DNA from: Prorocentrum cordatum | Lineage: Eukaryota; Sar; Dinophyceae; Prorocentrales; Prorocentraceae | DNA length: 64,000 nucleotides | Direction of reading: 5' to 3' | Assembly (NCBI GenBank): GCA_963575745.1 | Contig: CAUYUJ010014610.1 | Span: 276,383 to 340,382, forward strand | Notes under the pieces: model-generated | What the model was told of the DNA's origin: nothing | Seen by the model: the letters and a program-made list of their open reading frames with translations, nothing else | Databases searched by the model: none | Shown: positions 9,152 through 32,610 of the stretch, piece by piece | Layout: each line of letters opens with the position of its first letter | How positions within the stretch are numbered: the first letter of the stretch is position 1 | Position numbers and translations under genes: made by a program

Positions 9152-10536
9152 GAAGGACCAGCCCATCACGAATTGGGCCCAGAAAATATAATGCGTTCCA
9201 GAAGTCGGTGGACTTCAAAGCCCTAGGAGTCGCCAGGCACGGCAAGTCAGGCTTATTGGGGATCCGTGTTGCACGAGGGTCAGACGCCGCCAAGGCTGCT
9301 GCCGTCAGCATCCGTGGCTGCGAAGCCACCCTCGCCAAGACGCGATACCGCATCACTGGCATTGCGGCACGCCACGCCACGCTGACCCCGCTCGCTAAGA
9401 CTCTCACGGGCCCGTCCGTCAAATGGGACTGTGAGGTCTACCACACCGCCTGGGACCCAGCCACTTCGGCTCAGTTTGCCTTAGTGCGCGCCCATCGTCC
9501 CCCACCTACATATACGGTACAGGTCGCAGGGTGCCCCATCCCGTGGAGCATCACCGAGGCCCCGTTGGCTGAGGTGGTGCCGAAGAGGGACAACGTTACC
9601 ATTGTCCCCCCTACCACTATCACAGAGCCTGTGACGCCGCCAGCCCGTGGTGGCGGCTTCAGCCCCGCCACGGGCACACTCCTAACCAAAGCGGCCCAGA
9701 GCCCTTACCTCCACGACCTCATGACTGCCACGCCCAAAGGCAAGGGCGTCGCACCGCTCCAGATCCCCAAGGAGGAGCCTCTAGCCAAGCGCCACCGATC
9801 CTCCAGTGGGAAACGCGACGCCACGCCGCACGCAAGATCACACGGCGCCCCAGGCCGCAGCTCCTCTGCACCCCCGCACGGCACGGATGGAGCTGCCGAG
9901 CAGACGGCCGTCCAAGGTCCAGGTGGTCATGACCCGCAACTTGGCACGGTGGCGGCTGAAGGCGGGGGCCACACGGAAGGGGACGCTGCCACAGCCGCCG
10001 AGGTACCAGGCGACGCTGACTACGTCGAGATCCTCTCATCAGGGGATGAATTCAGCGTGGCATCTCGCGAACTGAACACCCTCGGCGAACGCTTCGCAAC
10101 GGCCCCTAAACTGTCAGATGCCGCCACGACCCGCATCCAACACATGGAACAACAGCACGAGCTGCTTGCCAACACGGTGGATAACATGCAGGTTCAGCTC
10201 GCGGGCGTTCTCTCATCCCAGGCCACACTCACGGAGCACGTTTCAGGTTTGGAACGAGGGCTTGCCACCGTCGTCACTCAGCAACAGACGGCAACTACCG
10301 AAGCTGCAGCACTGCGTGGCGACATCCAGGCCCTCCTCGGGCACCTCACGGGGGGCACCATCCACCTGCCACAGGTGGCCACCCTCGAAACAAAAAAGGA
10401 GGAAGCTGCATCAGTTGCCGATCCCGTGGCTGTCTGCGGGTGGATTGACCAGCCAGGCCAGGTCACCCCAGGGACGGGGCCCCCAGGGGCTGACAAAGGC
10501 AAAGACAAGGGGCGGGCCACTCAGGAACCCTATTGA
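9152..10536 (+). CDS. Element A second gag-like ORF with coiled coil
   Basis: This frame is open from just after a TGA near 9150 to a TGA at 10536. The track start at 9208 is a GTG and I see no in-frame ATG near the beginning, so the protein is probably the continuation of ORF1 through earlier frameshifts. Residues ~1-140 look globular (FKALGVARHGKSGLLGIRVA, then TYTVQVAGCPIPWS). The middle is disordered and Ser/Pro/His-rich with a Lys/Arg cluster. Residues ~310-400 have a heptad-like pattern with many Leu, Gln and Thr residues, suggesting a coiled coil, as in trimeric LINE ORF1 proteins. Hairpin H1 is translated here as GGGFSPATG. Function is inferred from position only. Confidence 0.55.
9643..9675 (+). 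repeat. Structured hairpin H1
   Basis: Arms GCCCGTGG / CCACGGGC enclose the core GGcGGCTTCAGCCCC with the single C bulge. The stem is complete apart from that bulge and one T-G pair. Confidence 0.85.
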
Positions 10537-10707
10537 AGGTGCCTCAGAGAGCCTGCCTCAGCCCTCCGAGGAAGCGCCTTCAGAGGCATCTCTTCTCTCT
10601 TCGCGTCGTATCTCTTACTTGTCATATCATGTCAGTTTTGGCAGCAGCACGAGCAAGCTATCTGGTGTAGGGACACCTGTCATCTTGCTGTGGGTGTGTT
10701 TGTTGCA

Positions 10708-13700
10708 ATGTACATGAGCATGCAGGGGTATCTAAGGATGCGTGCTGACATGCAGCTTTTGGCTCATCGCTCGCGCCGCCCGCCAGGCCTCGCCATCATG
10801 TGGCGCCTAGCCTGCAGCCTGGCCCTCCCCTCGCTCGCTGGAGCACACCCGTCTTCAGGCGGTGCGCCCCAGCACGGAGGAGAGGTTTTCCTGCGACACG
10901 CTGAACGTGGGATTCTTTTCTACCTCTACGATGACAGCATCTACAAGTACGATCACTGCACCATTTTGGACCCGATCGTGAACAGCACCGTAGCCGCGGG
11001 TCCGTGCGGCAACGAACCGCTGGGCGCCATCGTGAGCGCATACACACCCTTGTCAACTACGACACATGCATCGAAATCCACTCCCAGCGTGGCCTCGACT
11101 GCGGTGCTGCAGATCCTTGACGGGGACGTTGATTTAGGCCAGGCACACAGTGGCGGCTTCAGCCCCGCTGTTGTGCCCCGCTATTGCCCCACGGGTCTCA
11201 CCACCCCGCTGTGCGCTAGGGGCGAACCCGAGGAGGACCCTGCTTTCTGGCACCTGATGATGATCCGCGCCCGGCTCATACCGTGTGCTGCGGCGTGGGC
11301 ACCAGGTGAGGACCACCAGGACGTGTTCTGGGCATGGCTCGAGGACTGCGTCCCGTACATCCTGGCGACGCTCCATCTGCCACAGTACGATCACCTTTTT
11401 CAGGAGGAGTCTGAGGACACAACCGACGCCCTGCGTCAGCGCACCGCGGTCGACATGTGCGAGGACATCTGGCACAGAGCGGGCCCCGACAGGCAGCGCA
11501 TCAACCGCAACCTCACTCGTATCCAGAGCAGCCGCGAGTACGCCACCCGCTATTTTGGCCTCCTTCTGGAATACCAGGGCGCTCGAGCCACTCTCGTCGG
11601 CCCTGAGGCTTTCACGGCACCTTTGCCGCCATACCTCTCACGGGCCCATGCTCTGCTGCCAAGAGGCCTCCCTCCACCCGACCAAGACGCCATGGCGTAC
11701 CTCGCCGACGTGATCCTGCACCAACCGCCAGACATGCTGCCGCTCGTCGAGGAGGAGCTCGCCGCGGCGCCGATGGACGGCACCGATCAGGCCGCAGATG
11801 ACCCTGTATCATGGCTGCTTCAGCACATCGCGGCCAGCGACATCGGCAACACATCCATGGACTCGTTCCACGCGTCGGAAGATAGCCAGGACGGCATCGA
11901 TACCCAGGATCGAGACGGCACGATACCACCAGGCGACTCGGCCCAGCGTGACCGCGACAGTGAACCCTACTTTGGGCACACCTCGTTGCACAGCAGTCCG
12001 CCCCACAACTCAGCTCAGGCCGACCCCAGCGCACCGCTCAACGACGCTGAAGGCGTCACTGCCGCTGACGCGACAAGCCATTCCACTGCATCGCCAGCTC
12101 ATGCCAGCCCGTGCAGTGGCGGCTTCAGCCCCGCTGCACCACTGGATAGACCTGGACATCCCCAGACCGCAGGTGGCAGCACCACGCCCTTCACCTCCGT
12201 ACACCGTGACAACGTGACTGACTCCAACCCCAGTGCCATTGACCACTGGCAGGCCGACATCGACAACGACCCCATCGATGATGAGTACCCAGATGCCAGC
12301 GGTTCCCACGAGCCCCAGCACAGCGCAGCGGCATCACGACATTGTGGCTGCCTCATCTGCCTCTTTGTGGCCACGTACGCCATCGCGAAAGCAATGCCGT
12401 ACAAGGACCAGATCGATGGGTACTTGCCGACACCGAGCCGAGACCCCAGCTACCGACAACGACGACGACGCAAAGCGACGGCACCAGGCCCATCGGTGTC
12501 CACCACATCCCGACGCAAAACGACATACAATGTCACGTCCACATTGTGGGCCACTCTCAAATGGACCAGCGTCAAACTCAGAGATAGCGTCTCGGGCGGA
12601 GCCACTGCAGACGGGGTCGGCCTCGGGGGTGTCCTGAAATGGGCCAGCGGCAAGCTAGGGGCTATTGCCACGGGTGGAGTCGTGTGTGGTCTTCTACTCG
12701 TCGGTGCCAATCTTCTTGCCCAGGGAGCTGTCGGACACGTAGGAGCCCGCATCTGTGCGCGGGCCCTGGACTCATCCACAGCCCAGTGGTGCCTCCGCTG
12801 TTGCCAACCGAGCAGGAGGCCGCGTGATGAGGCCACATACAAAAAGCCGTGCACGCTCGCCGACGAACACGACGACCAGCATGTGCACGCACTCCGACAT
12901 CCGCTGCTGCAGGAACACTACGCCGCAGCAGTTGCCGCCGCAGTCGCCGATGTCACTACCGCCACCACCGCCGCCATCGTCGAAGTCACTGCCGCCGTAT
13001 CGCGAGCCTCGTCTGACACACCAAGATCGACCAGCCCGTCTCCACGAGACGGCTCCAAGAGCGGCGCGGCATTCGGTAACCTACCGACTAACGAGGATGC
13101 CACAGCACACGGCAGCGACACCGAGGCAAGGGAAACGCGTGAGCGCACCCACGATAGCCCGTGGTCCATCTTCCGACATGCTGACGCTCGTGGGTCCTCC
13201 CCCGACGCGGACACCCAACCACCACGACGGCGAGCACGCTATGCATCACCCGACAGGCCCCAGGCGCCTTCAGGCCCTGGTATGCCTTACACAGCCCTCA
13301 AGCCACCGACACGCAACTTACGCAACACCATCCAGCGCGACCCAGCGGTCCCCGTGCCGCCGAAGAGCATACTTAACGCCCTTTATCAAAACGGCTTTGC
13401 GCTAGGTAACAGTGGCGTGTCTACAGAGGACATCAAAGACGCTCTGCGACTCCACGACCATCCTCGATTTACTCATGATCCAACACTCCAAGCGCTGGGG
13501 CCGTGGACGGACAACATGCAGAGGCCCCCGAACCGCCTCACTTGGGTGCTGGAAGACTCGGGCGGGAACTCAGGCGAGACAATCTTCCCATACCTCACGT
13601 GGGACCTCCGCCAACCCACCACCGACGCGCCCACTGTCTTCTGGCATGGGACCCGCGGCGACCATGCGGCCCGTCTTGCTGCCAGTGGAGGGCACCTCTT

Positions 13701-13872
13701 GCCAGGTCCCCGCCGTGAAGCGAAGGGCCGAACTGGCACCAACGTTGGCCGCACGTACGCGAGCTTGCACCCTTCGCTGGCCGCGTGGTACGCAATGCCG
13801 CCCCACCCGCCCTACAGTCTTGAAGACGACACCCTCGCGTGGGGACCCATCGCACTCTGGATGTGCGAATAA
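10708..13872 (+). CDS. Element A accessory ORF: membrane-anchored, ADP-ribosyltransferase-like C-terminus
   Basis: The first in-frame ATG is at 10708. A second at 10798 starts a better signal peptide, MWRLACSLALPSLAGA. After a ~450-residue region with acidic and Cys/Trp-containing segments come a Cys-rich hydrophobic stretch (CGCLICLFVATYAIAKAMP, near 12341) and a likely TM segment (TGGVVCGLLLVGANLLA, near 12670), then a Ser/Pro/Arg-rich linker. The C-terminal ~90 residues contain FWHGTRGDHAARLAASG, GRTYASLHPSLAAWYA and end in LWMCE. A His-Gly-Thr, a later Tyr-x-Ser with Ala-x-x-Tyr-Ala, and a final Glu match the H-Y-E order of PARP/ART domains. This is motif-level similarity only. Hairpins H2-H5 lie inside the ORF. 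A secreted or membrane protein in a LINE is unusual. The real domain may extend past the stop. Confidence 0.6.
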   Translation: MYMSMQGYLRMRADMQLLAHRSRRPPGLAIMWRLACSLALPSLAGAHPSSGGAPQHGGEVFLRHAERGILFYLYDDSIYKYDHCTILDPIVNSTVAAGPCGNEPLGAIVSAYTPLSTTTHASKSTPSVASTAVLQILDGDVDLGQAHSGGFSPAVVPRYCPTGLTTPLCARGEPEEDPAFWHLMMIRARLIPCAAAWAPGEDHQDVFWAWLEDCVPYILATLHLPQYDHLFQEESEDTTDALRQRTAVDMCEDIWHRAGPDRQRINRNLTRIQSSREYATRYFGLLLEYQGARATLVGPEAFTAPLPPYLSRAHALLPRGLPPPDQDAMAYLADVILHQPPDMLPLVEEELAAAPMDGTDQAADDPVSWLLQHIAASDIGNTSMDSFHASEDSQDGIDTQDRDGTIPPGDSAQRDRDSEPYFGHTSLHSSPPHNSAQADPSAPLNDAEGVTAADATSHSTASPAHASPCSGGFSPAAPLDRPGHPQTAGGSTTPFTSVHRDNVTDSNPSAIDHWQADIDNDPIDDEYPDASGSHEPQHSAAASRHCGCLICLFVATYAIAKAMPYKDQIDGYLPTPSRDPSYRQRRRRKATAPGPSVSTTSRRKTTYNVTSTLWATLKWTSVKLRDSVSGGATADGVGLGGVLKWASGKLGAIATGGVVCGLLLVGANLLAQGAVGHVGARICARALDSSTAQWCLRCCQPSRRPRDEATYKKPCTLADEHDDQHVHALRHPLLQEHYAAAVAAAVADVTTATTAAIVEVTAAVSRASSDTPRSTSPSPRDGSKSGAAFGNLPTNEDATAHGSDTEARETRERTHDSPWSIFRHADARGSSPDADTQPPRRRARYASPDRPQAPSGPGMPYTALKPPTRNLRNTIQRDPAVPVPPKSILNALYQNGFALGNSGVSTEDIKDALRLHDHPRFTHDPTLQALGPWTDNMQRPPNRLTWVLEDSGGNSGETIFPYLTWDLRQPTTDAPTVFWHGTRGDHAARLAASGGHLLPGPRREAKGRTGTNVGRTYASLHPSLAAWYAMPPHPPYSLEDDTLAWGPIALWMCE
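10843..10867 (+). repeat. Structured hairpin H2
   Basis: Arms GCACACC / GGTGCGC (one mismatch) around cGTCTTCAGGC. Confidence 0.7.
11142..11177 (+). repeat. Structured hairpin H3
   Basis: Arms GGCACACAG / CTGTTGTGCC around the core. One T is bulged on the 3' side 11 nt after the first A of the AGCC arm. Confidence 0.85.
12111..12139 (+). repeat. Structured hairpin H4
   Basis: Arms GTGCAG / CTGCAC around TGGcGGCTTCAGCCCCG. Confidence 0.8.
13260..13280 (+). repeat. Structured hairpin H5
   Basis: Arms CCAGG / CCTGG around cGCCTTCAGGC. GGC / GCC can pair further out beyond an internal loop. Confidence 0.75.
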
Positions 13873-14175
13873 AAAGAAATAAAAACGCTGAGGGGGCCAC
13901 CCAACCACCGGCGCGGGGAAAACATGCACAAACTACGTGATAAGGGGAGCCCACTGAAAAAGAAAGAAACAAAACGAATGGAAAAAGAACACGAAATAAA
14001 AAAAAAGAAAAAAAGTAAATAAAAAAAACAAACAAAAAAAAATAGAAAAAACTGACAAAAAAGAAGGAAAGAAAAAAAAAAAAAAAAAAAAAAAACAAGT
14101 ATTGAAAAACAGAAAAGAAATAAAACAAAGAAAAGAAAATACAAATAAAAAAAAAAAAAAGAAAAATAAAAAAAG
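13873..14175. other. A-rich spacer between two element A ORFs
   Basis: Dominated by A runs broken by G, T or C, densest at 13960-14175. It separates two accessory ORFs. It could be a relict poly(A) tail of an inserted or spliced mRNA, or a simple expansion. No gene is seen. Confidence 0.75.
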
Positions 14176-14234
14176 ATGAGAAAAAGAAAAGAGCGCGCCT
14201 CATTTACCCTCGGGTCCAGAGCCTCCTCATCCGC

Positions 14235-17200
14235 ATGGACTGGTGTGCCCCCACAGAAGCTGCTTCCAGGTGCCGTGCCCTACCACACGCCTATGGCATG
14301 GGCGACTGCGCGCACGCCCTTCACATCGCTGGCTACGATCATCCAGATCTCCGTGAGGCGGCTGAAGCTCACGACCAGGAAGCTAGCACCAGGCGCAGAC
14401 CAGCCATCGCGGCAACGTGGCCACCGCCGCAGGCACTATACTCGCCAGAGGCAGCGCGAGTATGGGCCAAACAGCACTACGACACGGAAGCAGCCACCAG
14501 GGATGACCCTAACCAGCCCCGCCCACGCGTCTCGCTTCACATGCTCCAGCTGGACCCGAAACCACTCATTGACCTGGTGTACACTGGCTTGCAAGCTGTC
14601 CCCGTGCGGGGGCACCCTGACGCACGCGGGTCGCGCCCCAGCGGCTCCAGCCCTGGGGCCGCGTCGGGCCCACCACGCACGTACAAGTCAAGCACAGCCC
14701 TGGCGCACAGTCCAGACCGCTCATCGACGTCATCAGGAGCCGACGAACGCCGTACGCCTTCCCTCATCAGCGCGGCCGCCGCCCTCGCCCGAGGCCGTGC
14801 CCGCCCACGGCGATCTGCCTCTCGCTCTCGCTCGTCACGACAGAGTGGCGGGAACTCCACCTCAGACAACAGTGGCATCGAGACGTGGGAGCACATTGTG
14901 ACGGAAGAGGAGCCGACTGCCTACCACGTCCTCGCCTACCACGTCCGTGATGTGCGGACCCGTGTCAATGCCCCTGGCATCGAGGTCTGGCTTGACCCTG
15001 GTGATCACAACGACGGTGCCTACTTACCGTGGGGGACGACAGTCATGGGCCACCGCGTTATTGACCCTGCGGTGGCGGGGCGGGACGGCTGGGTCATCCT
15101 CCACCACGACCACGGCGACACCACTACTAAGCTCTGGGCACCGACCCAAGTCCACGTCAAAGCGGACAACACCTGGCGCACCGTCATGGTACCAGCGGAC
15201 ATGGGGCCCCAGTGGATCAGGTGCCATGCCGAGGACGCTCGCCTCCCCGCCGAGGTTGTCCGCACTACAGGCCAAACCTGGTTTGCTGACGTCTGGCCCT
15301 TGTGGGATCGGCCGCGACCCCACCCAGACGACCCAGGCACAAATGAGCATGCGCTCCCGCCTTTACCAGGACGCTGGTCTTGCCTACAGTGTCGATTCCA
15401 ATGCTGTCAGTACTGTGCGGCTCGCCGCAACACGCAGCTCGGCACCTCGGGCCAACCAACGTGCCCAGACTGCGCACGCAGCGGACTGCGTACACTCATG
15501 GACTGGTCCACGGACTACTCGTGCAACAGTTGGACGTGTGCATACAGCACCAACAACAGGGACTCCGACACATGCTGCCTGTCCAGCAGGTGCCCCCATC
15601 CCCCTAGTCCACACAGCCTGCTCGACGTCCGTGCCACAGGGATGCCGCCGCACATCCTTGCCCGCCAATTCGGCAACGCGCCAGCCCTCCACGACCTTAA
15701 GGAACCCCCCCGAGCGCCTTCAGGCCCCGGGGGGGAACCTCCACCACCAGGGCAAGCAGGTTACCAGGGTCAATGGTACTTCCCACCGCAGCCGCGGCGC
15801 GTCCCCAGGCAGGGACTGCCTGACGGCACAAGGCGGCCACCTGGATTCACAGGAACGGGGATGCCCGAAGAACCTTCCCCCGACCAACCGCTTTGGAGGG
15901 AAGGCTACGTGCTCTTCAGTCCCCACCAGGCCTTCAAGGAGGAATTCACCTTCAACAAGACGGTCCGCCGACCCTACTCCCTAGCCATTACCAACATGTA
16001 CAGGGATCGTGTCACGGTCAGGACCGTCTGCGAGTCGATCGCCGAGCGCATCCACACTACCCGCACCCGCTGGCGAGATGTGGTACTGTACTGGGACGCC
16101 GAGGGTGGTCCTGGGCATCAAGCCCTCGACTACGACATGCGACTCTGCGACGCCATGGTGAGCCGTGCCACGACCGAAGCCGAGCTAAACCACGACCGCA
16201 GCAACCGTGGTAGTTTCTGCCTCTATGGACCAGCGCACCAGCGAGCCGTCAACATCACGGCGATCTCCGAGCCGCAGAACATCGACAACATGGAGCATGT
16301 GCGGCGATACTCACCCGTAGGGGGGACCTACCCTGACCACGCCTTCGAGCACGTCTATCGGGGCTGGCAGCGGCCCGACGTGCCCACCAACCTCCCCGAC
16401 ACCCGTCCCCTCTCGAGAGCCGACTGGCAGCGACACCAACAGCACCAGCAGCGCATTCAGCAGCGGGACCAACGTGACGCAGGACAGCAGGGCACGCCAC
16501 GCTACCGCTCCCCCGCGCGAGTCCCGACAGGCGGTAACACGGCCTACGACGGGGTTGCCGCCTACTACCGTGGCCCCGTAGGTGCCAGGCCCGCGGCTGC
16601 TGGAGCAGCCGCCTCCAGCTACGGCCACGCCCCCCACGCCAGGGTACACCCAGCGGTCATCGGCTACCCGCGTGCACCCGTGCAGGCCCTCCCAAGGGCC
16701 ACCTCGCCAGTGCCAGGATCCACGCGCGCCTGGGGCCTTTACTCAGGCCGACATGATGGCACCTCCAGCAACCAGCCCGCAGTGATAACCCCTGCGGCTT
16801 CAGCCCAGGGGGCTGCAACAAACCGAGGCAGGGCTGGGCGCCCCGAAGGATGGCGTGATGCGAACGTGCGCGCTTGGCAACCGCGCCAGCACACGCCCCC
16901 GCCAAACGTGGCTGCAGCACTGCGCCCTGCCCAAGCAAAACCTGCCCCACCTGAGCGGGAGAGGCAGCCGCTTACCCCGCTCGTCCTCACGCACATCCAG
17001 GCGCATCACAGCGCCTCCCCGCGGCACAGCGAGGGAAGCGCCCACCGCGTCAGCCCCCGCCCCGACGCTGTCGACCCTGACCAGGCCACAGCCACGGCGG
17101 AGGGCGGCACAAGCGCCTCTCGCCAGCCCAGCCCATCACCCTGCGCGGCGCCGATCCGATCCCCGAGCAGGGCGGATTCCGAGCGCGCTAATGCCCAGGC

Positions 17201-17786
17201 GATCTCGCCACGCGACCGCCACACGGGCGGGCGCGTCCCGCGCAGCAGGACCTGCAGCCGCCACAGTTCACGCAAGGCCCCAGGGAGCTCCACGAGCTCG
17301 CCGCCTCGCGAGACTCAGGCAGATGGCCGAGCCCCCGAAGTGGTGCCACGCTTCGGAGCCAGCGTCATCGAACCTGGCCAGGTCGACCTCGAGCCGACGC
17401 CGTCCACGGACCACGAGCCGCCGCTGCCCACCCGCGTGATCGCCCCCATCGACGAGGCGCCAACCTTCGACCCGTTCAAGAACAAGTATCGTGTCAAGAA
17501 CCTCGTGGCGGGTTTCGGCGGTGGCTCACCGCTCTCACCTCAGAGTCGGGGCGGATCCCCCGCCACCTCAGCTGCTGCCGCGGCAGCGGCGGCCCCGCGG
17601 GGAATCAGCCCTGTCCGCAACGTGGGCCTCACGGCAGCGGGCATGGACGAGGCCCAGCGCCAGGCCTCCGACCGTGCTGCTGGAGCTGTTCCACCAGATG
17701 CTGCACATCAAGATACTGACGGGGCGGGCGCGCCACCGCAGGACGGACCAGCGGTGTCGCGTGCGCAGTATATGCGCGTGCGTTGA
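14235..17786 (+). CDS. Element A Cys-rich accessory ORF
   Basis: ATG at 14235, 1183 codons. Residues ~1-130 are globular, followed by a Ser/Arg-rich disordered region. Residues ~220-340 form a coherent domain (AYHVRDVRTRVNAPGIEVW, GRDGWVILHHDHGD). Residues ~375-460 hold a dense Cys pattern beginning CLQCRFQCCQYCAARR, then CPDCARSG, CNSWTCAYS and CCLSSRCP, suggesting a multi-zinc binding region. A second globular domain follows (residues ~560-720, including TRWRDVVLYWDAEGGPGHQ and SFCLYGPAHQRAVN). The rest is Pro/Arg-rich. Hairpins H6-H8 lie inside. A zinc-binding protein placed before the endonuclease-RT could bind element RNA, but I cannot name a family. It lies in the same reading frame as the downstream EN-RT, separated by three in-frame stops. 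Confidence 0.6.
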   Translation: MDWCAPTEAASRCRALPHAYGMGDCAHALHIAGYDHPDLREAAEAHDQEASTRRRPAIAATWPPPQALYSPEAARVWAKQHYDTEAATRDDPNQPRPRVSLHMLQLDPKPLIDLVYTGLQAVPVRGHPDARGSRPSGSSPGAASGPPRTYKSSTALAHSPDRSSTSSGADERRTPSLISAAAALARGRARPRRSASRSRSSRQSGGNSTSDNSGIETWEHIVTEEEPTAYHVLAYHVRDVRTRVNAPGIEVWLDPGDHNDGAYLPWGTTVMGHRVIDPAVAGRDGWVILHHDHGDTTTKLWAPTQVHVKADNTWRTVMVPADMGPQWIRCHAEDARLPAEVVRTTGQTWFADVWPLWDRPRPHPDDPGTNEHALPPLPGRWSCLQCRFQCCQYCAARRNTQLGTSGQPTCPDCARSGLRTLMDWSTDYSCNSWTCAYSTNNRDSDTCCLSSRCPHPPSPHSLLDVRATGMPPHILARQFGNAPALHDLKEPPRAPSGPGGEPPPPGQAGYQGQWYFPPQPRRVPRQGLPDGTRRPPGFTGTGMPEEPSPDQPLWREGYVLFSPHQAFKEEFTFNKTVRRPYSLAITNMYRDRVTVRTVCESIAERIHTTRTRWRDVVLYWDAEGGPGHQALDYDMRLCDAMVSRATTEAELNHDRSNRGSFCLYGPAHQRAVNITAISEPQNIDNMEHVRRYSPVGGTYPDHAFEHVYRGWQRPDVPTNLPDTRPLSRADWQRHQQHQQRIQQRDQRDAGQQGTPRYRSPARVPTGGNTAYDGVAAYYRGPVGARPAAAGAAASSYGHAPHARVHPAVIGYPRAPVQALPRATSPVPGSTRAWGLYSGRHDGTSSNQPAVITPAASAQGAATNRGRAGRPEGWRDANVRAWQPRQHTPPPNVAAALRPAQAKPAPPERERQPLTPLVLTHIQAHHSASPRHSEGSAHRVSPRPDAVDPDQATATAEGGTSASRQPSPSPCAAPIRSPSRADSERANAQAISPRDRHTGGRVPRSRTCSRHSSRKAPGSSTSSPPRETQADGRAPEVVPRFGASVIEPGQVDLEPTPSTDHEPPLPTRVIAPIDEAPTFDPFKNKYRVKNLVAGFGGGSPLSPQSRGGSPATSAAAAAAAAPRGISPVRNVGLTAAGMDEAQRQASDRAAGAVPPDAAHQDTDGAGAPPQDGPAVSRAQYMRVR
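14632..14663 (+). repeat. Structured hairpin H6
   Basis: Arms CGCGCCCCAG / CTGGGGCCGCG with core cGGCTCCAGCC (loop TCCA). One C is bulged on the 3' side at the same distance as in H3. Confidence 0.8.
15705..15735 (+). repeat. Structured hairpin H7
   Basis: CCCCCCCG / CGGGGGGG arms, a small ag/cc internal loop, then cGCCTTCAGGC. Confidence 0.7.
16789..16811 (+). repeat. Structured hairpin H8
   Basis: CCCCTG / CAGGGG around cGGCTTCAGCC. GCAG / CTGC can pair further out across an internal loop. Confidence 0.8.
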
Positions 17787-18004
17787 GCCGCTGCCGCGCC
17801 TAGCCGCCGCCGCTGGTTCGCTTTTGCTTTTGTGTTCGGCAGGACGGATCGAGGAGTCGCCTCCCTCTCCCTCTGCTGCCGTCTCACCTCTCCTCCCCTC
17901 GTCCCCTACGGTACTGGAGTGAGGAGGATTTTTCGTGACATTTTTACTGACGTTTATGAACCCCCCCCTGGCGCAGTGCCGACCGTGTCCCGCCTATACT
18001 TCTG

Positions 18005-18034: not shown

Positions 18035-18101
18035 TAATCCATAGGAACGCCATGAGCTCCTACTGTGGCCACGCCTTCTACCTGGGCGAGGGTCAGGCTG
18101 A

Positions 18102-24002: not shown

Positions 24003-24040
24003 TCTCCTCCTTTCTGCCTGCCCGTGTGTACGCGTGGCTC

Positions 24041-24367
24041 CGCGTCCACGGTGTCAGGGCGTGGGGGCGGGGGTGCCCCGTCACTGCGCGCCGCTTAGCG
24101 GCCAAGCGCCCAACTGGCGGTCTGCCAAGCCGCCTAGCCACGTGTCAGCACGTCGCCTTTCTTGTTGGGGCCTCTTTCCTTACGCGGTCTGACAGGTGAG
24201 ATCATCATCGTCTGTCCGCCGTCTGTAGCGTCTGTCGCACTGCGCCGGGGGAGGGGTTTTATGTTGCCCGCCCTCGTATCTAAAGGCTGCACCGCCGCAA
24301 ATAGTGCATGCGAGTTGTCGCACCGCAGTGCGCCTCGCGGACGGACCCTGGTCCGCCTACTTGTCCG
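24041..24367 (+). repeat. Shared 3' terminal region of elements A/B (copy A)
   Basis: 327 bp matching 31609-31935 at high identity and equal length, ending in ttgtccg just before (TC)n. This is the likely 3' UTR recognised by the reverse transcriptase. Confidence 0.85.
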
Positions 24368-24435
24368 ATCTCTCTGCCTCTCTCTCTCTCTGCCTCTCTC
24401 TCTGTGCCTCTCTCTCTCTCTGCCTCTATCTCTGC

Positions 24436-24466
<31 letters not shown>

Positions 24467-24498
24467 CTCTCTTCTCTCTATTCTCTCTCTGCTCTCTC

Positions 24499-24531
<33 letters not shown>

Positions 24532-24598
24532 GCTCTCTCTCTTCTCTTCTCTTCTCTTCTCTTCTCTTCTCTTCTCTTCTCTTCTCTTCTCTTCTCTT

Positions 24599-24671
<73 letters not shown>
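24368..24671. repeat. (TC)n tract between elements A and B
   Basis: About 300 bp of TC and TTCTC repeats, including a run of about 14 cttct units (24541-24605). It is both the 3' flank of A and the 5' flank of B. Confidence 0.95.
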
Positions 24672-24674
<3 letters not shown>

Positions 24675-24823
24675 GTCTCGGCTCGAGAGTGCCCAGCACT
24701 CAGACCGCAGCCGCGACGCGAAGCGCCCCGCCTCGGAGCCAGACTCCCAGGCCTCGCGAGGCCGGAGGGGTCCCAGCAGGACCCTACTGATTCGCGTCAC
24801 CTCTCCTCAGTGCGACCGCCGCC
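24672..24823 (+). repeat. Shared 5' terminal region of elements A/B (copy B)
   Basis: Homologous to 7750-7906, diverging only just before the ATG. Confidence 0.85.
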
Positions 24824-27800
24824 ATGGCCCCCCTGTCTGCGCCAGGCCGCCACCGCACTTTCACGTCTCACCATGCTGTACTACCTGAGCTGCCTGGCCA
24901 TGTTACTGTTCATAGGCACCAGGACCTTGTCTTCCGCGTGCCCGTCCTGCACGGGCGCGACCTCCCAGTACCACCTGGACACGCCCCACACGTGCCGCGT
25001 GCGGATCTTCACGAAGATCTACGTATACTTGGGCATGACGTGTTTCACCTGCGCGCCGAGCTGCGCGCCTACCGAGCCGACCTCCGCGCTCACCTACCAA
25101 GCACCGACGCCAACACAGACGACTCCGTCCAGCACCTGCACACCTCGGTACGGCCAGGTATCCAGGGGGGGGTCGGGCTCCCGACTGCTGGGGGTGACGG
25201 TGCTGAGTGCGGTCGGGCTGTTCCCACGCCTGCCGTCGTCGCGCCGTGCGTGACAAGCAGTCGGCCCCCAACCTCCCCCCGAGAGCGCTCCCGCGGCAAC
25301 GTAGGCACCGCTCTCAACTTCATCGGCATTATCTTGCTGAACTTCGGGTACGGCCTCGGCTCCACCTTCGGCATCGTTCTCGGCACCGTCGGTCCGCAGA
25401 CAGCATCGACGCCAGCTCTGACGGCGGCACTGCAGTCAGCATCGACGCCAGCGAGTGGTACGGATTCGGCACCACCCTCGCCCCCTCCCTCACCCCGCCC
25501 CGCAGGAGGAGGAGGAGACGATGACGACCACGACGACCTTGACGACTCATTACCGGCGCCGGCGCCGAGGTCAGCACCGACGCTCCCACCGACGGCAGAT
25601 ACGACCCCAGTTTCGCTGACCCCGACGGCAGCATTGACGGCGGCGAGGACGGCTCCGACGGCAGCACCGCTAGCATCACAGACTCCGACGGCGGCATCGA
25701 TAGCATCGCCGGCTCCGACGGTAGCATCGACGGCAGCGACGCCACCACTGCCAGCGGCGGCTCCGACGTCAGCATCGACGGCAGCGACGCCAGTACTGCC
25801 AGCGACATCTCCGACGGCCGCAAGAGACGTCAGCACCACAATCACCCACTCCTGCGCTCCCTGTATGGCCACTCGCTCGGCGGCGCCTTCAGGCCCGCCG
25901 AAGCCTGGTGACCTACAGACCTCTCCTCGGCATCATCGTCTCTCAGAGTTGCTGCCAGCTTCGACGCCAGCTCCGACGTCCGTATCGAGGCCAGCACCGA
26001 CGCCAGCCCCTACGACAGCACCGCCAGCGTCAACACCCATGCCTGCGCCTACGCCGGTACCTACGCCAGAGTTGCAGGCCGCATCGACGCCAGCTCCGGC
26101 GTCTCCATCGAAAGCAGCACCGATGACAGCTCCTATGCCAGCACCGCCAGCGGCACCAACCACTATTTATCCCACCCCGCCGACGACCCTGGGTGCCCCT
26201 AGGCTAGCACCGCCGACCACCGCATCCATTGAGGCGCCCACGTCCACATCAACGACAGCACCGACGGCCGCATCGAGGCTAGCCTCGATGAGTCCTCAGC
26301 CAGTCACTGCTCTGACGCCTCGTCCATGGCCGCGGGCGGGAGTGCAGCCTTCAGGCGCACTCTCCGCTAGCGGGGCCGCCATGTCATGTCATGCCACGTC
26401 CGCCTCGTCGCCCGCATCGTCTGTGTCACTATCTGCGCCGACGACTACATCGACGCCACCACGGACGGCAGCTGGGACGTCCGCATCGGCAGCGACAGCT
26501 TTCGGGCGACCGCCTTCGACGTCAGCAGTGGCAGACTCGCCGGCGGCGGCACAAACGTTGCCACCCTCGGTGCCACCTACGGCAGTCCCCCAAACGGCCT
26601 TCACAGCGGTATCCACGATAGCACTCATGACTACATCCACGGTGGCATACACGGCCATGGCTCCCGTGCCCACGTCCGCACCGACGCCAGCATTGACGAC
26701 AGGATCGGCCTCAGTATCGTCGGCACCGACAGTGGCATTGACGACGAGATCGACACCATCAGGCACACCCACGGCTATTGGGGCCGCCATACCACGCCGT
26801 ATCATGTCCGCCACGTCGACACCTACGCCTGCGCCACGGCCCGCATCGACCCCAACAGCGACGTCAGCACCGACGACCGCATCGACGCCAGCCTCGACGA
26901 GCCCTCAACCATTCACTGTCCTGACGCCTCGCTTAGGGCCGCTGGCGCGGGTGCCGTCTTCAGGCGCGCCCTACGCTAGTGGGGCCGCCATGTCATGTCA
27001 GGACACGCTTGCCTCGTCGATTTTTTCGTCTGCGGCACTGTCTGCATCGACGACAACATCGACGACTACGCCGGTACCCACGCCAGAGTTGCAGCCAGCA
27101 TCTACGCCAACTCCGCCGTCTGCATCGACGCTCGCATCCATGGCAGCATCGCCCATAGCTTTGACACCAGCACTGCCAGCGGCAGCTCCCACGACCACGC
27201 CTACGCGGGCACCAACGTTGACACCAGCACCAACGCCGGCACTGAGCGCTGCCGAGACGTCATCGCCGACGACTACTCTCACGCCAACCCTGCCAGATTC
27301 AGCACGCCCTGAGTCGTCCGCGGCGGCGCCAAAGGTGGCACCCACGTCGGCCTACACGGCAGCGTTCGTGGAGCGTGTGTGGTTGGAGGTCATCGAGTGG
27401 TACAACGTGGTGTCACCGTCCACGTGGGCCACCCTGTGCGCCACGTACGTCATGCACTACTTCTTCATCGGCTTCCGCGACGAGCGGCGGCGACGGAGCG
27501 CAGCTACAGCGCGGCGGCGACGCCGACAGCGCGGCGGCGACGTCGACCGCAGACGCCCTCTAGGCCACCAGACGGCCGCCCAGGGCCGCCCTGGCATCAG
27601 CCCCCACACTGCCACGAGCCTCGAGCCGACCTCCCTTCCAAAACCTGGTAGCACGCCAGCGGGGGCGGCTTCAGCCCCCCCGCATGGCACCACGCCTGCC
27701 ATTCCTGTCATCGGCCCCCACACGGCCTCAAGCCTCGAGTCGACCCTCCCGCCAAAACCTGGTAGCACGCCAGCGGGGGCGGCTTCAGCCCCCCCGCATG

Positions 27801-28657
27801 GCACTACGCCTGCCGTTTCTGTCATCGGTCCCCACGCTGCCTCGAGCCCAGGGGTGACCTCCCCGCCACAACCTGGTAGCATGGCAGCGGGGCCTGCCTC
27901 GGCCGTCTCACATGCTCACACGCCTGCCCTGGATCCTGGCTCCCTCGCAACCTCGCGTGTTAGCACTAGCACTCCCAGCACTAGCACTGTGACTGTACGG
28001 GAGCACCTCGAGCGCTACCTCGGACCACAACCAGCCACCATCGGTTACCTCCGAGCCGTCAACCGTCGCTTGGCAGCTCGGATTCCACCGCGGCTCCACG
28101 CCGGCACCGAGGTTATCGTACAAGGCCAGGTCCACAACCCCATCAACGGCCTCCGAGGCATCGTACGAGGGCCGTCCAGGGAGTATCCAGGCCTCTGGAC
28201 CGTCACGCTGCCTACTGGTGACACTGCCCACCTCCGCGGTTCCAGTTTGACCGTCCCAGCACCCCCGCTGCGCGCCGAGGTGCCGCCCACCAGTACAGGC
28301 ATACTCACGAGGGCGCCAATCCAGGACCCCCAGCCGGCCCCCGCAGCGTACACAAGTTGCATCAGTCTGGCGGCACGGCGCCTGACGACACAGCGGCGGC
28401 ACCCTGCAAGTCGGCCTCGCTGCCTGCCGCCAGCAGCCGCGATCAGACGGACATCACGGCTGGCCACGACGAAGGCCTCGGTGGCTCACGCGATGACGGG
28501 GACGACGACGGCCTCTTCCTCGGGGTACAGGTCGAGATCACCGCACCGACCAGCCCTCTGCGTGGATACATCGGCACAACCATCGACTTGTCTGGCGACC
28601 GCGTCGTGGTCCAGTTCACCGGCGGTCTCACCGTCGGTTGGAGCCGCTCCGATGTGA
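24824..28657 (+). CDS. Element B long Thr/Pro/Ala-rich ORF with KOW-like segment
   Basis: The ATG at 24824 is in the same position relative to the shared 5' end as the ORF1 start of A. 1277 codons. The first ~155 codons are His/Arg-rich and may be out of frame, because the overlapping frame at 24873 looks more protein-like there. From residue ~160 this frame carries a hydrophobic segment, FIGIILLNFGYGLGSTFGIV, a likely TM helix. About 650 residues of degenerate Thr-Pro-Ala repeats follow (mucin-like). Next come VERVWLEVIEWYNVV, a second hydrophobic stretch (CATYVMHYFFIGF) and an Arg-rich block. Near 28110-28250 it reads EVIVQGQVHNPINGLRGIV and WTVTLPTGDTAHLRG, resembling KOW/SH3-like folds. 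Hairpins H14-H18 lie inside. Past ~28340 sense seems to shift to the next frame. Function unknown. Confidence 0.5.
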   Translation: MAPLSAPGRHRTFTSHHAVLPELPGHVTVHRHQDLVFRVPVLHGRDLPVPPGHAPHVPRADLHEDLRILGHDVFHLRAELRAYRADLRAHLPSTDANTDDSVQHLHTSVRPGIQGGVGLPTAGGDGAECGRAVPTPAVVAPCVTSSRPPTSPRERSRGNVGTALNFIGIILLNFGYGLGSTFGIVLGTVGPQTASTPALTAALQSASTPASGTDSAPPSPPPSPRPAGGGGDDDDHDDLDDSLPAPAPRSAPTLPPTADTTPVSLTPTAALTAARTAPTAAPLASQTPTAASIASPAPTVASTAATPPLPAAAPTSASTAATPVLPATSPTAARDVSTTITHSCAPCMATRSAAPSGPPKPGDLQTSPRHHRLSELLPASTPAPTSVSRPAPTPAPTTAPPASTPMPAPTPVPTPELQAASTPAPASPSKAAPMTAPMPAPPAAPTTIYPTPPTTLGAPRLAPPTTASIEAPTSTSTTAPTAASRLASMSPQPVTALTPRPWPRAGVQPSGALSASGAAMSCHATSASSPASSVSLSAPTTTSTPPRTAAGTSASAATAFGRPPSTSAVADSPAAAQTLPPSVPPTAVPQTAFTAVSTIALMTTSTVAYTAMAPVPTSAPTPALTTGSASVSSAPTVALTTRSTPSGTPTAIGAAIPRRIMSATSTPTPAPRPASTPTATSAPTTASTPASTSPQPFTVLTPRLGPLARVPSSGAPYASGAAMSCQDTLASSIFSSAALSASTTTSTTTPVPTPELQPASTPTPPSASTLASMAASPIALTPALPAAAPTTTPTRAPTLTPAPTPALSAAETSSPTTTLTPTLPDSARPESSAAAPKVAPTSAYTAAFVERVWLEVIEWYNVVSPSTWATLCATYVMHYFFIGFRDERRRRSAATARRRRRQRGGDVDRRRPLGHQTAAQGRPGISPHTATSLEPTSLPKPGSTPAGAASAPPHGTTPAIPVIGPHTASSLESTLPPKPGSTPAGAASAPPHGTTPAVSVIGPHAASSPGVTSPPQPGSMAAGPASAVSHAHTPALDPGSLATSRVSTSTPSTSTVTVREHLERYLGPQPATIGYLRAVNRRLAARIPPRLHAGTEVIVQGQVHNPINGLRGIVRGPSREYPGLWTVTLPTGDTAHLRGSSLTVPAPPLRAEVPPTSTGILTRAPIQDPQPAPAAYTSCISLAARRLTTQRRHPASRPRCLPPAAAIRRTSRLATTKASVAHAMTGTTTASSSGYRSRSPHRPALCVDTSAQPSTCLATASWSSSPAVSPSVGAAPM
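24873..25253 (+). CDS. Element B signal-peptide Cys-rich ORF
   Basis: The ATG at 24873 gives 126 residues. It starts with a textbook signal peptide (MLYYLSCLAMLLFIGTRTLS) followed by ACPSC, then RIFTKIYVYLGMTCFTCAPSC. After that come a Thr/Pro stretch and a hydrophobic C-terminus (LLGVTVLSAVGLF). It overlaps the start of the 24824 frame, and only one is likely translated here. Composition favours this one for the first ~380 bases, with a later frameshift into the 24824 frame. Element A has a comparable signal-peptide ORF (ATG 10798), so a secreted or ER-targeted product may be a family feature. Confidence 0.45.
   Translation: MLYYLSCLAMLLFIGTRTLSSACPSCTGATSQYHLDTPHTCRVRIFTKIYVYLGMTCFTCAPSCAPTEPTSALTYQAPTPTQTTPSSTCTPRYGQVSRGGSGSRLLGVTVLSAVGLFPRLPSSRRA
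25875..25904 (+). repeat. Structured hairpin H14
   Basis: GCTCGGCGG / CCGCCGAaGC around cGCCTTCAGGC. Fully paired except the C bulge and one bulged A at the usual 3' position. Confidence 0.85.
26336..26367 (+). repeat. Structured hairpin H15
   Basis: GCGGGAGTGC / GCACTCtCCGC around aGCCTTCAGGC. The 5' bulge is A here. It lies in a segment duplicated at 26945. Confidence 0.85.
26945..26976 (+). repeat. Structured hairpin H16
   Basis: Paralogue of H15. GGGTGC / GCGCCC replaces GAGTGC / GCACTC, keeping the stem by a compensatory change. Core cGTCTTCAGGC. Confidence 0.8.
27655..27688 (+). repeat. Structured hairpin H17
   Basis: GCCAGCGGG / CCCGCaTGGC around the GGcGGCTTCAGCCCC core. It is part of a 114-bp tandem unit. 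Confidence 0.85.
27769..27802 (+). repeat. Structured hairpin H18
   Basis: Same arms as H17, 114 bp downstream in the next tandem unit. Confidence 0.85.
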
Positions 28658-30087
28658 CTCGCGTTCGCAAAGACCCAGGGCTCCGGCTGTCAGGCAGCGC
28701 GCAGAAACTGATGCGGCGCCTCGACCAGTCGCCGCGCCCCTTCCCCGGGACTGCCCTGGAGCCCCTCCATGACATCCCGGAGGAGCCTGTCCCTGCTGAC
28801 CTCCCGCCTGCCCCCTGGACGGCAACGTCTGTGGAAAAGACAAGTGTCTGTTGTTCACACCTGCTTCACATGCGTATAATCACTCACTCTGACTCTATTC
28901 TGTTATGTCAGAAACAAGGATGCCGCCACACAGTGTCTCAGCCTGATGTGTCAGAAACAAGGATGCCGCCACACAGTGTCTCTCCCCTGCCGGCACGAGC
29001 GGTGGCGTTCGAAATGGGATCTCATCCACAAGCGTCAGAGCCGAAGGCAGCACCGACGCCCCTGTCGACGCCCGCACCGACGCCAGCACTGACGACAGTT
29101 CTGACACCAGCACCTCCAGCGCCAGCGGCCGCCCCCACCACGCCGGCACCAAAGCCAAAGTCACAGGCAGCAGCGACGTCAGACCCGACACCCACCCCGA
29201 CGTCAACAGTGAGGCCAGCACCGACGACAGCTCCGACGCCAGCACCGCCAGCGTCACCACCCACGCCTGCGCCTACGCCGGTACCCACGCCAGAGTTGCA
29301 GCCAGCATCTACGCCAACTCCGCCGTCTGCATCGACGCTCGCTTCCATGGCAGCATTGTCCATAGCTTCGACACCAGCACTGCCAGCGGCAGCACCCACG
29401 CCCACGCCTACGCGGGCACCAACGTTGACACCAGCACCAACGCCGGCACTGAGCGCTGCCGAGACGTCATCGCCGACGACAACTCTCACGCCAACCCTGC
29501 CAGATTCAGCACGCCCTGAGTCGTCCGCGGCGGCACCAAAGATGGCACCCACGTCGGCCTACACAGCAGCGTTCGTGGAGCGTGTGTGGTTGGAGGTCAT
29601 CGAGTGGTACAACGTGGTGTCACCGTCCACGTGGGCCACCCTGTGCGCCACGTACGTCATGTACTACTTATTTACCGGCTTCCGCGACGAATGGCGGCGA
29701 CGGAGCGCAGCTACAGCGCGGCGGCGACGCCGACAGCGCGGCGGCGACGGCGACCGCAGACGCCCTCTAGGCCACCAGACGGCCGCCCAGGGCCGCCCTG
29801 GCACCAGCCCCCATACTGCCTCGAGCCTCGAGCCGACCCCCCTGCCAAAACCTGGTAGCACGCCAGCGGGGGCGGCTTCAGCCCCCTCACATGGCACCAC
29901 CCCTGCCACTCCTGTCATCGGCCCCCACACTGCCTCAAGCCTCGAGTCGCCCCCCCCGCCAATACCTGGTAGCACGCCAGCGGGGGCGGCTTCAGCCCCC
30001 CCGCATGGCACCACGCCTGCCATTCCTGCCATCGGTCCCCACGCTGCCTTGAGCCCTGGGGTGGACCTCCCCGCCACAACCTGGTAG
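28357..30087 (+). CDS. Element B second Thr/Pro/Ala-rich ORF (frameshift continuation)
   Basis: Open for 576 codons from a TTG, with no early ATG, so it is probably the continuation of the 24824 protein after a frameshift near 28340. The beginning reads GLFLGVQVEITAPTSPLRG and VVVQFTGGLTVGWSRSDVT, a second KOW/SH3-like segment. A 42-bp tandem duplication (28906-28990) follows, then Thr-Pro-Ala repeats. It then carries a near copy of the upstream VERVWLEVIEWYNVV / YVMYYLFTGF / Arg-rich module, from the 825-bp duplication. A one-base insertion near the end of the duplicated unit (gtggacc versus gtgacc) ends the frame at 30085-30087. Hairpins H19 and H20 lie near its end. Confidence 0.45.
   Translation: MHQSGGTAPDDTAAAPCKSASLPAASSRDQTDITAGHDEGLGGSRDDGDDDGLFLGVQVEITAPTSPLRGYIGTTIDLSGDRVVVQFTGGLTVGWSRSDVTRVRKDPGLRLSGSAQKLMRRLDQSPRPFPGTALEPLHDIPEEPVPADLPPAPWTATSVEKTSVCCSHLLHMRIITHSDSILLCQKQGCRHTVSQPDVSETRMPPHSVSPLPARAVAFEMGSHPQASEPKAAPTPLSTPAPTPALTTVLTPAPPAPAAAPTTPAPKPKSQAAATSDPTPTPTSTVRPAPTTAPTPAPPASPPTPAPTPVPTPELQPASTPTPPSASTLASMAALSIASTPALPAAAPTPTPTRAPTLTPAPTPALSAAETSSPTTTLTPTLPDSARPESSAAAPKMAPTSAYTAAFVERVWLEVIEWYNVVSPSTWATLCATYVMYYLFTGFRDEWRRRSAATARRRRRQRGGDGDRRRPLGHQTAAQGRPGTSPHTASSLEPTPLPKPGSTPAGAASAPSHGTTPATPVIGPHTASSLESPPPPIPGSTPAGAASAPPHGTTPAIPAIGPHAALSPGVDLPATTW
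29862..29895 (+). repeat. Structured hairpin H19 (partly decayed)
   Basis: GCCAGCGGG arm intact. The 3' arm carries T and A changes giving one G-T pair and one mismatch. Confidence 0.75.
29976..30009 (+). repeat. Structured hairpin H20
   Basis: Same arms and bulges as H17 and H18. Confidence 0.85.
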
Positions 30088-30100
30088 CACGGCAGCAGGG

Positions 30101-30766
30101 ATGCAGGACGCCGACCCTAGCGGCCGAAATCTCCATGGTGCGGACACGCTGCGAGAGGTCGCGGAGACGCTGTCGCACCTGAAGGAGCAGGACCTGCTCC
30201 AACGACTGGAGGCTGAGGAGCGCTCCGACAGGAGGAGGCTGAGGAGGCTGAGAGCCAAACGCAAGGCCGCAGCAGCCGCCGAGGGGGGCGGCGGGGACGC
30301 CGCGCAGGCCCAGGAGGAGCCACCCTGCCAGGATGCTCCGGCTCCTGCGCTCCGCCGGGCCAAGCGGATCCTCTTGTCATGGGTGTTGGCCGCGTACCTG
30401 CCGCCTCTTGTGGCGGTCCCCGACCGCCGCCCCGCTAGGCACACCCACTGGTTCCGCGAAGCTGGACCACAGTACGACGGACCGAGAAAGGCCGACGCGC
30501 AGCCGACTGCCCACCGATGCATCGAGCTCCGCCTATGGAGTCTGAGAGCTCCTGGCCCCCGCCCGACTCTGGCCCGCAGTTCGGACATGCTCCTAACCTG
30601 CGTGGACGCGGCCCTCGGCCTCCCGCACGGCCGCACAGCAGGCCTCATCCACCGCGCCACTCTCAAGCGTCTGCGCACTGATACTGTTTTCCTTCTTCAG
30701 TTTCTCACGTGGTCCGACGCTTTTGAAGAACGCTGGGGCTTCTCATTCACTTTGCCCTCATCCTGA
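30101..30766 (+). CDS. Element B C-terminal coiled-coil/TM ORF
   Basis: The ATG at 30101 gives 221 residues. Residues ~12-65 form a highly charged predicted coiled coil (DTLREVAETLSHLKEQDLLQ, then Arg/Lys-rich repeats). A Gly/Ala linker and a hydrophobic segment (ILLSWVLAAYLPPLVAV, residues ~90-106) follow, then a globular-looking tail with His, Cys and Leu (IELRLWSLRAPGPR, SSDMLLTCVDAALGLPHG). It begins 13 bases after the stop of the preceding frame and ends before the 3' region. No family recognised. It could be a membrane-tethered structural protein of the element. Confidence 0.45.
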   Translation: MQDADPSGRNLHGADTLREVAETLSHLKEQDLLQRLEAEERSDRRRLRRLRAKRKAAAAAEGGGGDAAQAQEEPPCQDAPAPALRRAKRILLSWVLAAYLPPLVAVPDRRPARHTHWFREAGPQYDGPRKADAQPTAHRCIELRLWSLRAPGPRPTLARSSDMLLTCVDAALGLPHGRTAGLIHRATLKRLRTDTVFLLQFLTWSDAFEERWGFSFTLPSS

Positions 30767-30782
30767 CCAGCGTGGTTCGGCC
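30725..30782 (+). repeat. 58-bp direct repeat, copy 1
   Basis: Begins gaagaacgctggggcttctc. Repeated at 31000-31057 with one substitution near the end. Confidence 0.9.
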
Positions 30783-30999
30783 AGCATGTTGTTTGTATGT
30801 GCCAATCTTGCGTTTATACTTGTTTCTGGTAAGCCTGTTGTTCGGTCGTTGGTGCGTACTCTTCACACGCAGTATATATGCATTTGTTGTTCCTCCTTCC
30901 TGAATGTGGTGACGTTAACCCGGCCGGCCACCTTCGTTATCTACTGCTTGGCTTTCAGAGCAAACAGGTGGGACAAAATGCGTTGTACTTTTCAAGAGC

Positions 31000-31057
31000 G
31001 AAGAACGCTGGGGCTTCTCATTCACTTTGCCCTCATCCTGACCAGCGTGGTACGGCC
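31000..31057 (+). repeat. 58-bp direct repeat, copy 2
   Basis: Copy of 30725-30782. The intervening 217 bp could have been inserted or duplicated within the element's 3' part. Confidence 0.9.
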
Positions 31058-31128
31058 TCGCCCTCGCCGCAAGTGCGCGTCCTGCCTTGTTCACCCGGGC
31101 GCTGTTCCCTGGTGCGCCGTGCCTGCTG

Positions 31129-31160
31129 GCGGGGGTGGCGGCTTCAGCCCCACCCCACGC
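31129..31160 (+). repeat. Structured hairpin H21
   Basis: GCGGGGGT / ACCCCaCGC around GGcGGCTTCAGCCCC. The bulged A on the 3' side is at the usual position. It lies in the non-coding 3' part of element B. Confidence 0.85.

Positions 31161-31608: not shown

Positions 31609-32610
<1,002 letters not shown>

Follow-up and report, generated by a model that had tools for sequence, protein, structure and literature searches.

Why should hairpins with nearly the same apex on stems of differing sequence recur many times, all in one orientation, through two neighboring mobile elements? The question is raised by a 64-kb window (64,000 nucleotides) of the Prorocentrum cordatum genome, contig CAUYUJ010014610.1, positions 276,383 to 340,382. 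Two elements, designated A and B, occupy the interval from about 7.6 to 31.9 kb of the window, with (CT)n tracts between them and at their outer borders. Element A, about 17 kb in length, is a long interspersed nuclear element (LINE); element B looks like its non-autonomous partner. The data described below establish that the hairpins are under constraint at the nucleotide level and suggest that they mark A and B RNA for one machinery, most simply for ribonucleoprotein (RNP) assembly or packaging.

When the 64-kb window was searched for the four apex sequences (GTCTTCAGGC, GGCTTCAGCC, GCCTTCAGGC and GGCTCCAGCC), 23 occurrences were found on the + strand and none on the - strand, 15 lying in A and 8 in B (Table 1). 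A preliminary description of the locus had counted 21, all in the sense orientation (13 in A and 8 in B). The orientation was correct and the count too low: one A copy (site 8250) lies upstream of the range then described, and 14 rather than 13 fall inside it. The hairpins span 17-37 nt. As also described earlier, a single unpaired base, nearly always C, precedes the apex: pairing with this base bulged out is better than in the flush register in 22 of 23 copies, and C occupies the bulge in 22 copies, A in the remaining one. With G-U allowed, at least three uninterrupted arm pairs are found in 22/23 copies and at least five in 20/23. The short arms are those of sites 15716 (mismatch at arm pair 2), 18015 (three pairs) and 10851 (four pairs).

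The array is not a product of chance. In 300 dinucleotide-preserving shuffles of positions 7500-32000, a mean of 0.29 apices was obtained (maximum 2), none with a 5-bp arm, while a covariance model built from 21 copies and run on both strands of the window at E values up to 1 returned the 23 sites and nothing else. When left and right arms were re-paired among the 23 copies, the observed pairing total was reached in 0 of 20,000 permutations. The idea that unrelated arms remain complementary holds for complementarity and fails in part for unrelatedness: sites 11155 and 12121 both carry CAGTGG, 14643 resembles 23597, and four B copies are duplicates, so that independent arms number fewer than 23. 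After omission of two identical tandem copies, the remaining 21 hairpins gave a covariation score of 0.692, as compared with 0.162 for shuffled alignments (0/500) and 0.09-0.21 when the pairing partners were slid. In this set 87.9% of alignment cells are paired and both-sided changes occur at 9 of 11 pairs, the number of such pairs not being outstanding by itself (9 vs 7.8, 104/500 shuffles). Shuffles, arm permutations, covariation and specificity of the covariance model all reject a chance origin.

Individual cases illustrate how pairing is kept. Among the duplicates at 26347 and 26956 and two copies on contig C2, whose flanks are 74-80% identical, an A-T pair is exchanged for G-C; in a C2 copy of site 31140, U-G replaces U-A and the loop reads TCCA in place of TTCA. 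Tandem and segmental duplication have added hairpins to B: the segments 27063-27892 and 29270-30100 are 95% identical and contain 114-bp tandem units, most of them with a hairpin. A scan with fixed geometry and free loop, covering 259 kb (the window plus 20 fetched regions), found 134 places, 96 of them with a TTCA or TCCA loop. The same bulged geometry was seen there with other loops, of which ACCT (10) and AACT (6) were the most frequent, counts that may repeat one place.

Conservation was measured against 20 regions from seven contigs, found by means of one 15-mer. Across 137 alignments at 16 sites, the hairpins (-7 to +15) differ at 27 of 3141 positions (0.9%) and their flanks at 3983 of 72,042 (5.5%). 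The contrast is stronger at synonymous positions of ORFs (open reading frames) 1-5, where 118 alignments show 8 changes in 830 within hairpins (1.0%) as opposed to 1905 in 15,586 in the flanks (12%). Constraint is equal at sites that lack the search 15-mer (6/572 vs 1275/10,057 synonymous changes, 77 alignments), ruling out bias from the search pattern. A BLAST artefact in the conservation profile is likewise ruled out by random centers: the divergence ratio is 0.098 for hairpins (n=15) and has a median of 1.01 for random centers in A (144 of 150 drawn; P 2.4e-8). Within A, constraint is weakest at 21032 (7/253) and 18015 (5/207). At orthologous positions 161 of 169 site-copies are intact, a figure that includes the window's own copies and omits three of B's duplicate sites. 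Among the copies no clean empty site was seen; the left arm is deleted in one copy of 13266. Since the hairpins are conserved beyond their flanks, synonymous sites included, selection acts on the nucleic acid. Together with the covariation and the persistence of the site-copies, this supports the earlier suggestion that selection holds the structure.

Does this selection concern protein, DNA or RNA? All hairpins but 18015 sit in ORFs that run through them, and most would specify GGFSP, AASA or APSG-like peptides, so a repeated GGFSP or AASA motif encoded by a palindrome by chance might be imagined. The hairpins, however, occupy several codon phases (0 and 2 in the main ORFs, 1 in the short 5' ORF at 8250), one copy lies between ORFs, arms encoding different residues nevertheless pair, and synonymous sites within hairpins are about 12-fold more conserved than in the flanks. 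The variety of phases and the synonymous constraint rule out a peptide motif, and we give this explanation next to no credence. Inverted repeats under nucleotide-level constraint could also be a feature of the DNA: protein-bound palindromes, extruded cruciforms, or tags that direct silencing or insertion. Against this stand the orientation, fixed in 23/23 copies, the inner eight pairs, in which G-U occurs 10 times and A-C twice, and the poorer pairing in antisense. The fixed-geometry scan gave 96 places when read in sense and 64 when read in antisense; folded within a 210-nt context, 20 of the 23 hairpins are predicted to form in the sense strand and 15 in the antisense strand (arm probability >0.5). 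A role as DNA is thus improbable, and the G-U pairs, the fixed orientation and the predicted folding together favor a role as RNA.

The preliminary description had also raised the possibility of a self-spreading hairpin, in which the apex inserts anew and, in doing so, duplicates flanking sequence in inverted orientation to form the second arm. Such a process would account for the many different arms around one apex. It would also fit a 41-bp stretch with one hairpin that is shared by A (23465-23505) and B (27651-27692) at 93% identity, the sole hairpin homology between the middles of the two elements by self-BLAST, and the tandem amplification in B of a 114-bp unit containing it. Yet the hairpins stay at the same places in the copies examined, with no clean empty site, their conservation exceeds that of the flanks, and their orientation is strictly sense. 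Nor is there any genome-wide excess in the one other arm class searched, apex GGCTTCAGCC with G/C arms whose first pair is Y-R, which occurs at 31 places in 4.1 Gb as compared with 45 for controls. The fixed positions and the compensatory manner in which arms change make self-spreading very improbable.

Genome-wide searches covered 4.13 Gb in 21,875 contigs. The 15-mer GGCGGCTTCAGCCCC is present 8358 times, its reversed control 37 times. The arms of site 16796 with a C bulge and any loop have 1447 genomic copies (control, 0); in the first 100 of these the loop is TTCA in 96, TCCA in three and CTCA in one. The same arms and TTCA loop with a bulge other than C gave an uncalibrated count of zero genomic copies. 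The apex CGCCTTCAGGC occurs at 4524 places (control, 1810). Among 54 strings from the first 100 of these, three have at least three arm pairs, one being A's own site; A's other CGCCTTCAGGC site falls below this cut because of a mismatch. No hairpin of the present kind was seen outside A and B elements in these tests, which covered two apices and restricted arm classes. A repeated hairpin lacking the bulge and having a TTCA loop, CTCCGCCGGCTTCAGCCGGCGGAG and near variants, was encountered at about nine places in different contigs (for example C1761:58804-58836 and C4414:9738-9770).

In A the hairpins are regularly spaced. Nine of 14 gaps in the window copy and 11 of 14 in the C2 copy measure 950-1350 nt, as against an expectation of 1.9 (P 1e-5 and 0/100,000, respectively); the two are copies of one element and amount to one observation. 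The 950-1350 band was chosen after the gaps had been seen; with the band left free, the regularity persists (5e-5 and 0/20,000). An A-rich stretch at 13981-14174 in the window's A looks like an insertion or expansion, since the flanking hairpin gap is 1377 here and 1114 in copies L033, L036 and L040.

ORFs 1-5 of A, counted between stop codons, measure 460, 1111, 1220, 1200 and 703 codons. Pfam searches identified an AP-type (apurinic/apyrimidinic) endonuclease in ORF4 (Exo_endo_phos, 26.6 bits with a cut-off of 24.5, 6e-6) and an RNase_H domain in ORF5 (1e-6). The RVT_1 match in ORF4 is weak (14.8 bits with a cut-off of 29.6, E 0.025); DRQKCFD and FVDD, read by eye in the same ORF, are presumably catalytic motifs of the reverse transcriptase (RT). 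The end of ORF2 (13640-13830) contains FWHGTRGDHAARLA...GTNVGRTYASLHPSLAAWYA, for which Pfam gives no match; to the eye it resembles an ADP-ribosyltransferase core. Relatives in other organisms were absent at E 1e-5 among 7993 scored protein-collection candidates, and none was found in viral contigs.

A and B are 88.6% identical at the 5' end and 84.7% at the 3' end (self-BLAST), the common 3' region starting at 24007. The searched ORFs of B gave no Pfam match and no BLASTP match to the ORFs of A; in particular, no RT was found by Pfam and BLASTP in B's longer ORFs, a search that did not extend to all six frames. From the shared ends, B would appear to have been moved by A's machinery. One 5'-truncated copy of A was read, L051, and aligns with A solely from 23178 through the 3' end. 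Within the window, A and B are arranged head to tail and joined at (CT)n tracts (7592-7751, 24369-24673 and 31936-32608). Head-to-tail A-A and A-B-A arrangements were seen on C21 and C2, respectively, as if the lineage targets CT microsatellites.

What, then, might the hairpins do? In our estimate the chances are about even that they act in cis as a dispersed RNA signal, maintained by selection in one retrotransposon lineage, that is read by a protein and serves to assemble an RNP, with B mobilized by A. In each copy, a stem would carry an unpaired C on its 5' side; beyond this bulge come three base pairs and then the loop, UUCA or UCCA, with C-G as the closing pair. Below the bulge, almost any stem sequence would do provided that pairing holds, and this part would merely present the core. 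A nearly fixed core on stems of free sequence fits recognition of bulge and loop on the sense RNA by a protein, which would most likely be encoded by the element. Binding along the whole transcript could then yield an RNP, or particle, carrying the RNA for copying. B, in which no RT was found, would be mobilized by A's machinery through what it has kept. Apart from both ends and the hairpins it retains little of A, a pattern suggesting that the hairpins label RNA for that machinery. Of the roles proposed in the preliminary description, RNP packaging or translation control, this tips the balance toward packaging, although both remain conjectural. Candidate readers are the products of ORF1, with its long helix, and of ORF3, with a Cys-rich stretch noted by eye, neither having a recognized RNA-binding fold. 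A more specific version is possible, though we advance it tentatively: a virus-like assembly code in which the hairpins of A, placed as if by a ruler about every 1.1 kb, each nucleate an element protein that packages the 17-kb RNA. If so, a dispersed packaging-signal system would have evolved in a non-LTR (long terminal repeat) retrotransposon and, by convergence, would have come to resemble phage coat-protein operators in architecture.

The structural and selection data also fit a host protein that reads the hairpins in a very long transcript and serves its export from the nucleus, its stability, the suppression of its splicing or its translation. Dispersal of the hairpins through ORFs and one intergenic gap would suit such a factor, and sharing by A and B would be explained just as well. 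A general host signal might, on the other hand, be expected to recur elsewhere, and a limited test with other arms showed no such hairpins in the rest of the genome. Frameshifting, in turn, is an unlikely role, as the ORFs run through the hairpins. On the whole we regard a host reader as rather unlikely.

A number of observations weigh against the proposal of a protein-read RNA signal assembling an RNP. The copies are related, with some arms alike, so counts do not represent independent events. Site 18015 scores 3 in the bulged register and 5.5 in the flush register with mismatches, and, like 26956 and 29874, is not predicted to form in the 210-nt context (arm probability <0.5 for 18015). Divergence at B's site 27667 is not reduced (2/46 vs 46/1016, two alignments). 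Five of the ten inner G-U pairs come from one column with several similar arms, and outer columns 2 and 3 show no G-U excess (G-U 3, A-C 4). Spacing is irregular in B (P 0.58), and the long A gap 18015-19809, which spans the endonuclease domain, conceals no hairpin of the same kind. As to the reader, Pfam detected no capsid, nucleocapsid or known RNA-binding domain in A's ORFs, and a PDB sequence search with ORF1 and ORF2 gave no coat-like or RNA-binding match. The predicted structure of the ORF1 protein is poor (mean predicted local distance difference test score, pLDDT, 46), appearing confident only for about residues 320-400, and to that extent it too speaks against the proposal.

Comparison with known systems helps to place the array. 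Among the dispersed packaging signals of ssRNA viruses, the type case is that of bacteriophage MS2, with its TR hairpin and related stem-loops. The MS2 hairpin has two pairs between bulge and loop, whereas three are present here and the core is nearly fixed in sequence. What defines the MS2 packaging signals is a loop of the form xxYA together with an A bulged out on the 5' side (PMC6281560). The present array shares with them the many stem-loops along one RNA with a common core and a 5' unpaired base, and its UUCA and UCCA loops fit xxYA. With C rather than A as the bulged base in 22/23 copies, however, the hairpins are not members of that motif; their carrier is a LINE in which no capsid gene was found, and the resemblance would be one of convergence, not homology. 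The 3' tail stem-loops of stringent LINEs are exemplified by eel UnaL2 and zebrafish ZfL2. The 3' stem-loop is reported to be read by the LINE's own protein, and short interspersed nuclear elements (SINEs) to use the same machinery (PMC4176376, PMC5135761). The hairpins of A are similar in being RNA stem-loops of a LINE and different in that all 15 are internal, mostly in ORFs, and lie upstream of the shared 3' end region. In L1 RNA, no comparable repeated signal defined by both sequence and structure is known to us. The coiled-coil protein ORF1p of LINE-1 is described as packaging the element's RNA (PMC5940361), and ORF1 of A is predicted to have a comparable long helix, probably a coiled coil. 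Introner elements with inverted repeats are reported as enriched in P. cordatum introns (PMC10666404). Both cases involve inverted repeats in a genome of this type, but those of introners lie at both intron ends, unlike the present hairpins, nearly all of which are inside ORFs. Palindromic double-hairpin elements are repeated hairpins that spread in organelle DNA; the hairpins studied here, in contrast, are found at fixed places in one nuclear lineage and only in sense.

No Rfam family scored above its gathering score in the window. A literature search over titles and the beginnings of abstracts produced no report of such an array in retrotransposons or dinoflagellates, the LINE signals that surfaced, as far as those texts go, being 3' stem-loops. 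The main text of the P. cordatum genome paper contains neither the word hairpin nor the word retrotransposon (PMC10666404). With 23 stems for one core, well over 1000 genomic copies and a partner that has little in common with A beyond ends and hairpins, the array offers a natural test of the features by which RNA is recognized. To our knowledge, no dispersed RNA recognition signals have been known in this class of element, and how LINE machinery tells its own RNA, or that of RT-less partners, from host RNA is poorly understood beyond the 3' tail. Should the hairpins be packaging signals, the dispersed-signal assembly proposed for RNA viruses would exist in a nuclear retrotransposon, and the near-fixed core would make the signals easier to see than in RNA viruses. 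The system may also be a source of a compact RNA tag, with its binding protein, for use in dinoflagellates.

Table 1. Elements, ORFs and hairpins in window coordinates; the ends of A and B are approximate.
Feature	Position	Strand	Apex	Bulge	Remarks
Element A	7578..24370	+			LINE-type retrotransposon; long ORFs; (CT)n tract on each side; 15 hairpins
Element B	24370..31940	+			Putative partner with 5' and 3' ends of A; 8 hairpins; middle largely unrelated
ORF1 of A	9154..10536	+			Long C-terminal helix, probably coiled coil; candidate RNA-binding ORF1p
ORF4 of A	18102..21704	+			AP-type endonuclease plus putative reverse transcriptase; RT below Pfam cut-off
ORF5 of A	21891..24002	+			RNase H domain (Pfam)
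A1	8240..8268	+	GTCTTCAGGC	C	Site 8250; 9 bp arm
A2	9643..9675	+	GGCTTCAGCC	C	
A3	10837..10873	+	GTCTTCAGGC	C	Site 10851; 2 arm mismatches
A4	11147..11171	+	GGCTTCAGCC	C	Site 11155
A5	12111..12139	+	GGCTTCAGCC	C	Site 12121; arm like A4
A6	13260..13280	+	GCCTTCAGGC	C	Site 13266
A7	14635..14659	+	GGCTCCAGCC	C	Site 14643
A8	15705..15735	+	GCCTTCAGGC	C	Site 15716; arm pair 2 mismatched
A9	16789..16811	+	GGCTTCAGCC	C	Site 16796
A10	18011..18027	+	GGCTTCAGCC	C	Site 18015; 3 bp arm; between ORF3 and ORF4
A11	19797..19829	+	GGCTTCAGCC	C	Site 19809; 2 arm mismatches
A12	21026..21046	+	GGCTCCAGCC	C	Site 21032; among the weaker conserved
A13	22175..22195	+	GGCTTCAGCC	C	
A14	23469..23499	+	GGCTTCAGCC	C	In 41-bp stretch common to B's tandem hairpins
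A15	23584..23618	+	GGCTCCAGCC	C	Site 23597; like A7
B1	25877..25901	+	GCCTTCAGGC	C	
B2	26338..26364	+	GCCTTCAGGC	A	Site 26347
B3	26949..26971	+	GTCTTCAGGC	C	Site 26956; duplicate of B2, compensatory A-T to G-C
B4	27659..27683	+	GGCTTCAGCC	C	Site 27667; in 114-bp tandem unit
B5	27773..27797	+			Tandem copy of B4
B6	29868..29888	+			Site 29874; duplicated unit, arm partly decayed
B7	29980..30004	+			Duplicated unit
B8	31132..31156	+	GGCTTCAGCC	C	Site 31140

Elsewhere in the window, a unit that includes a 165-bp repeat in 1.8 tandem copies is present three times at intervals of about 1.64 kb (51850-55442). The satellite-like motifs GGCCTCTTGGG and TGTGAGTCGTTCGGGC, mostly near each other, occur in arrays at 47680-47857, 48791-49416, 50514-50807 and 62551-62790.

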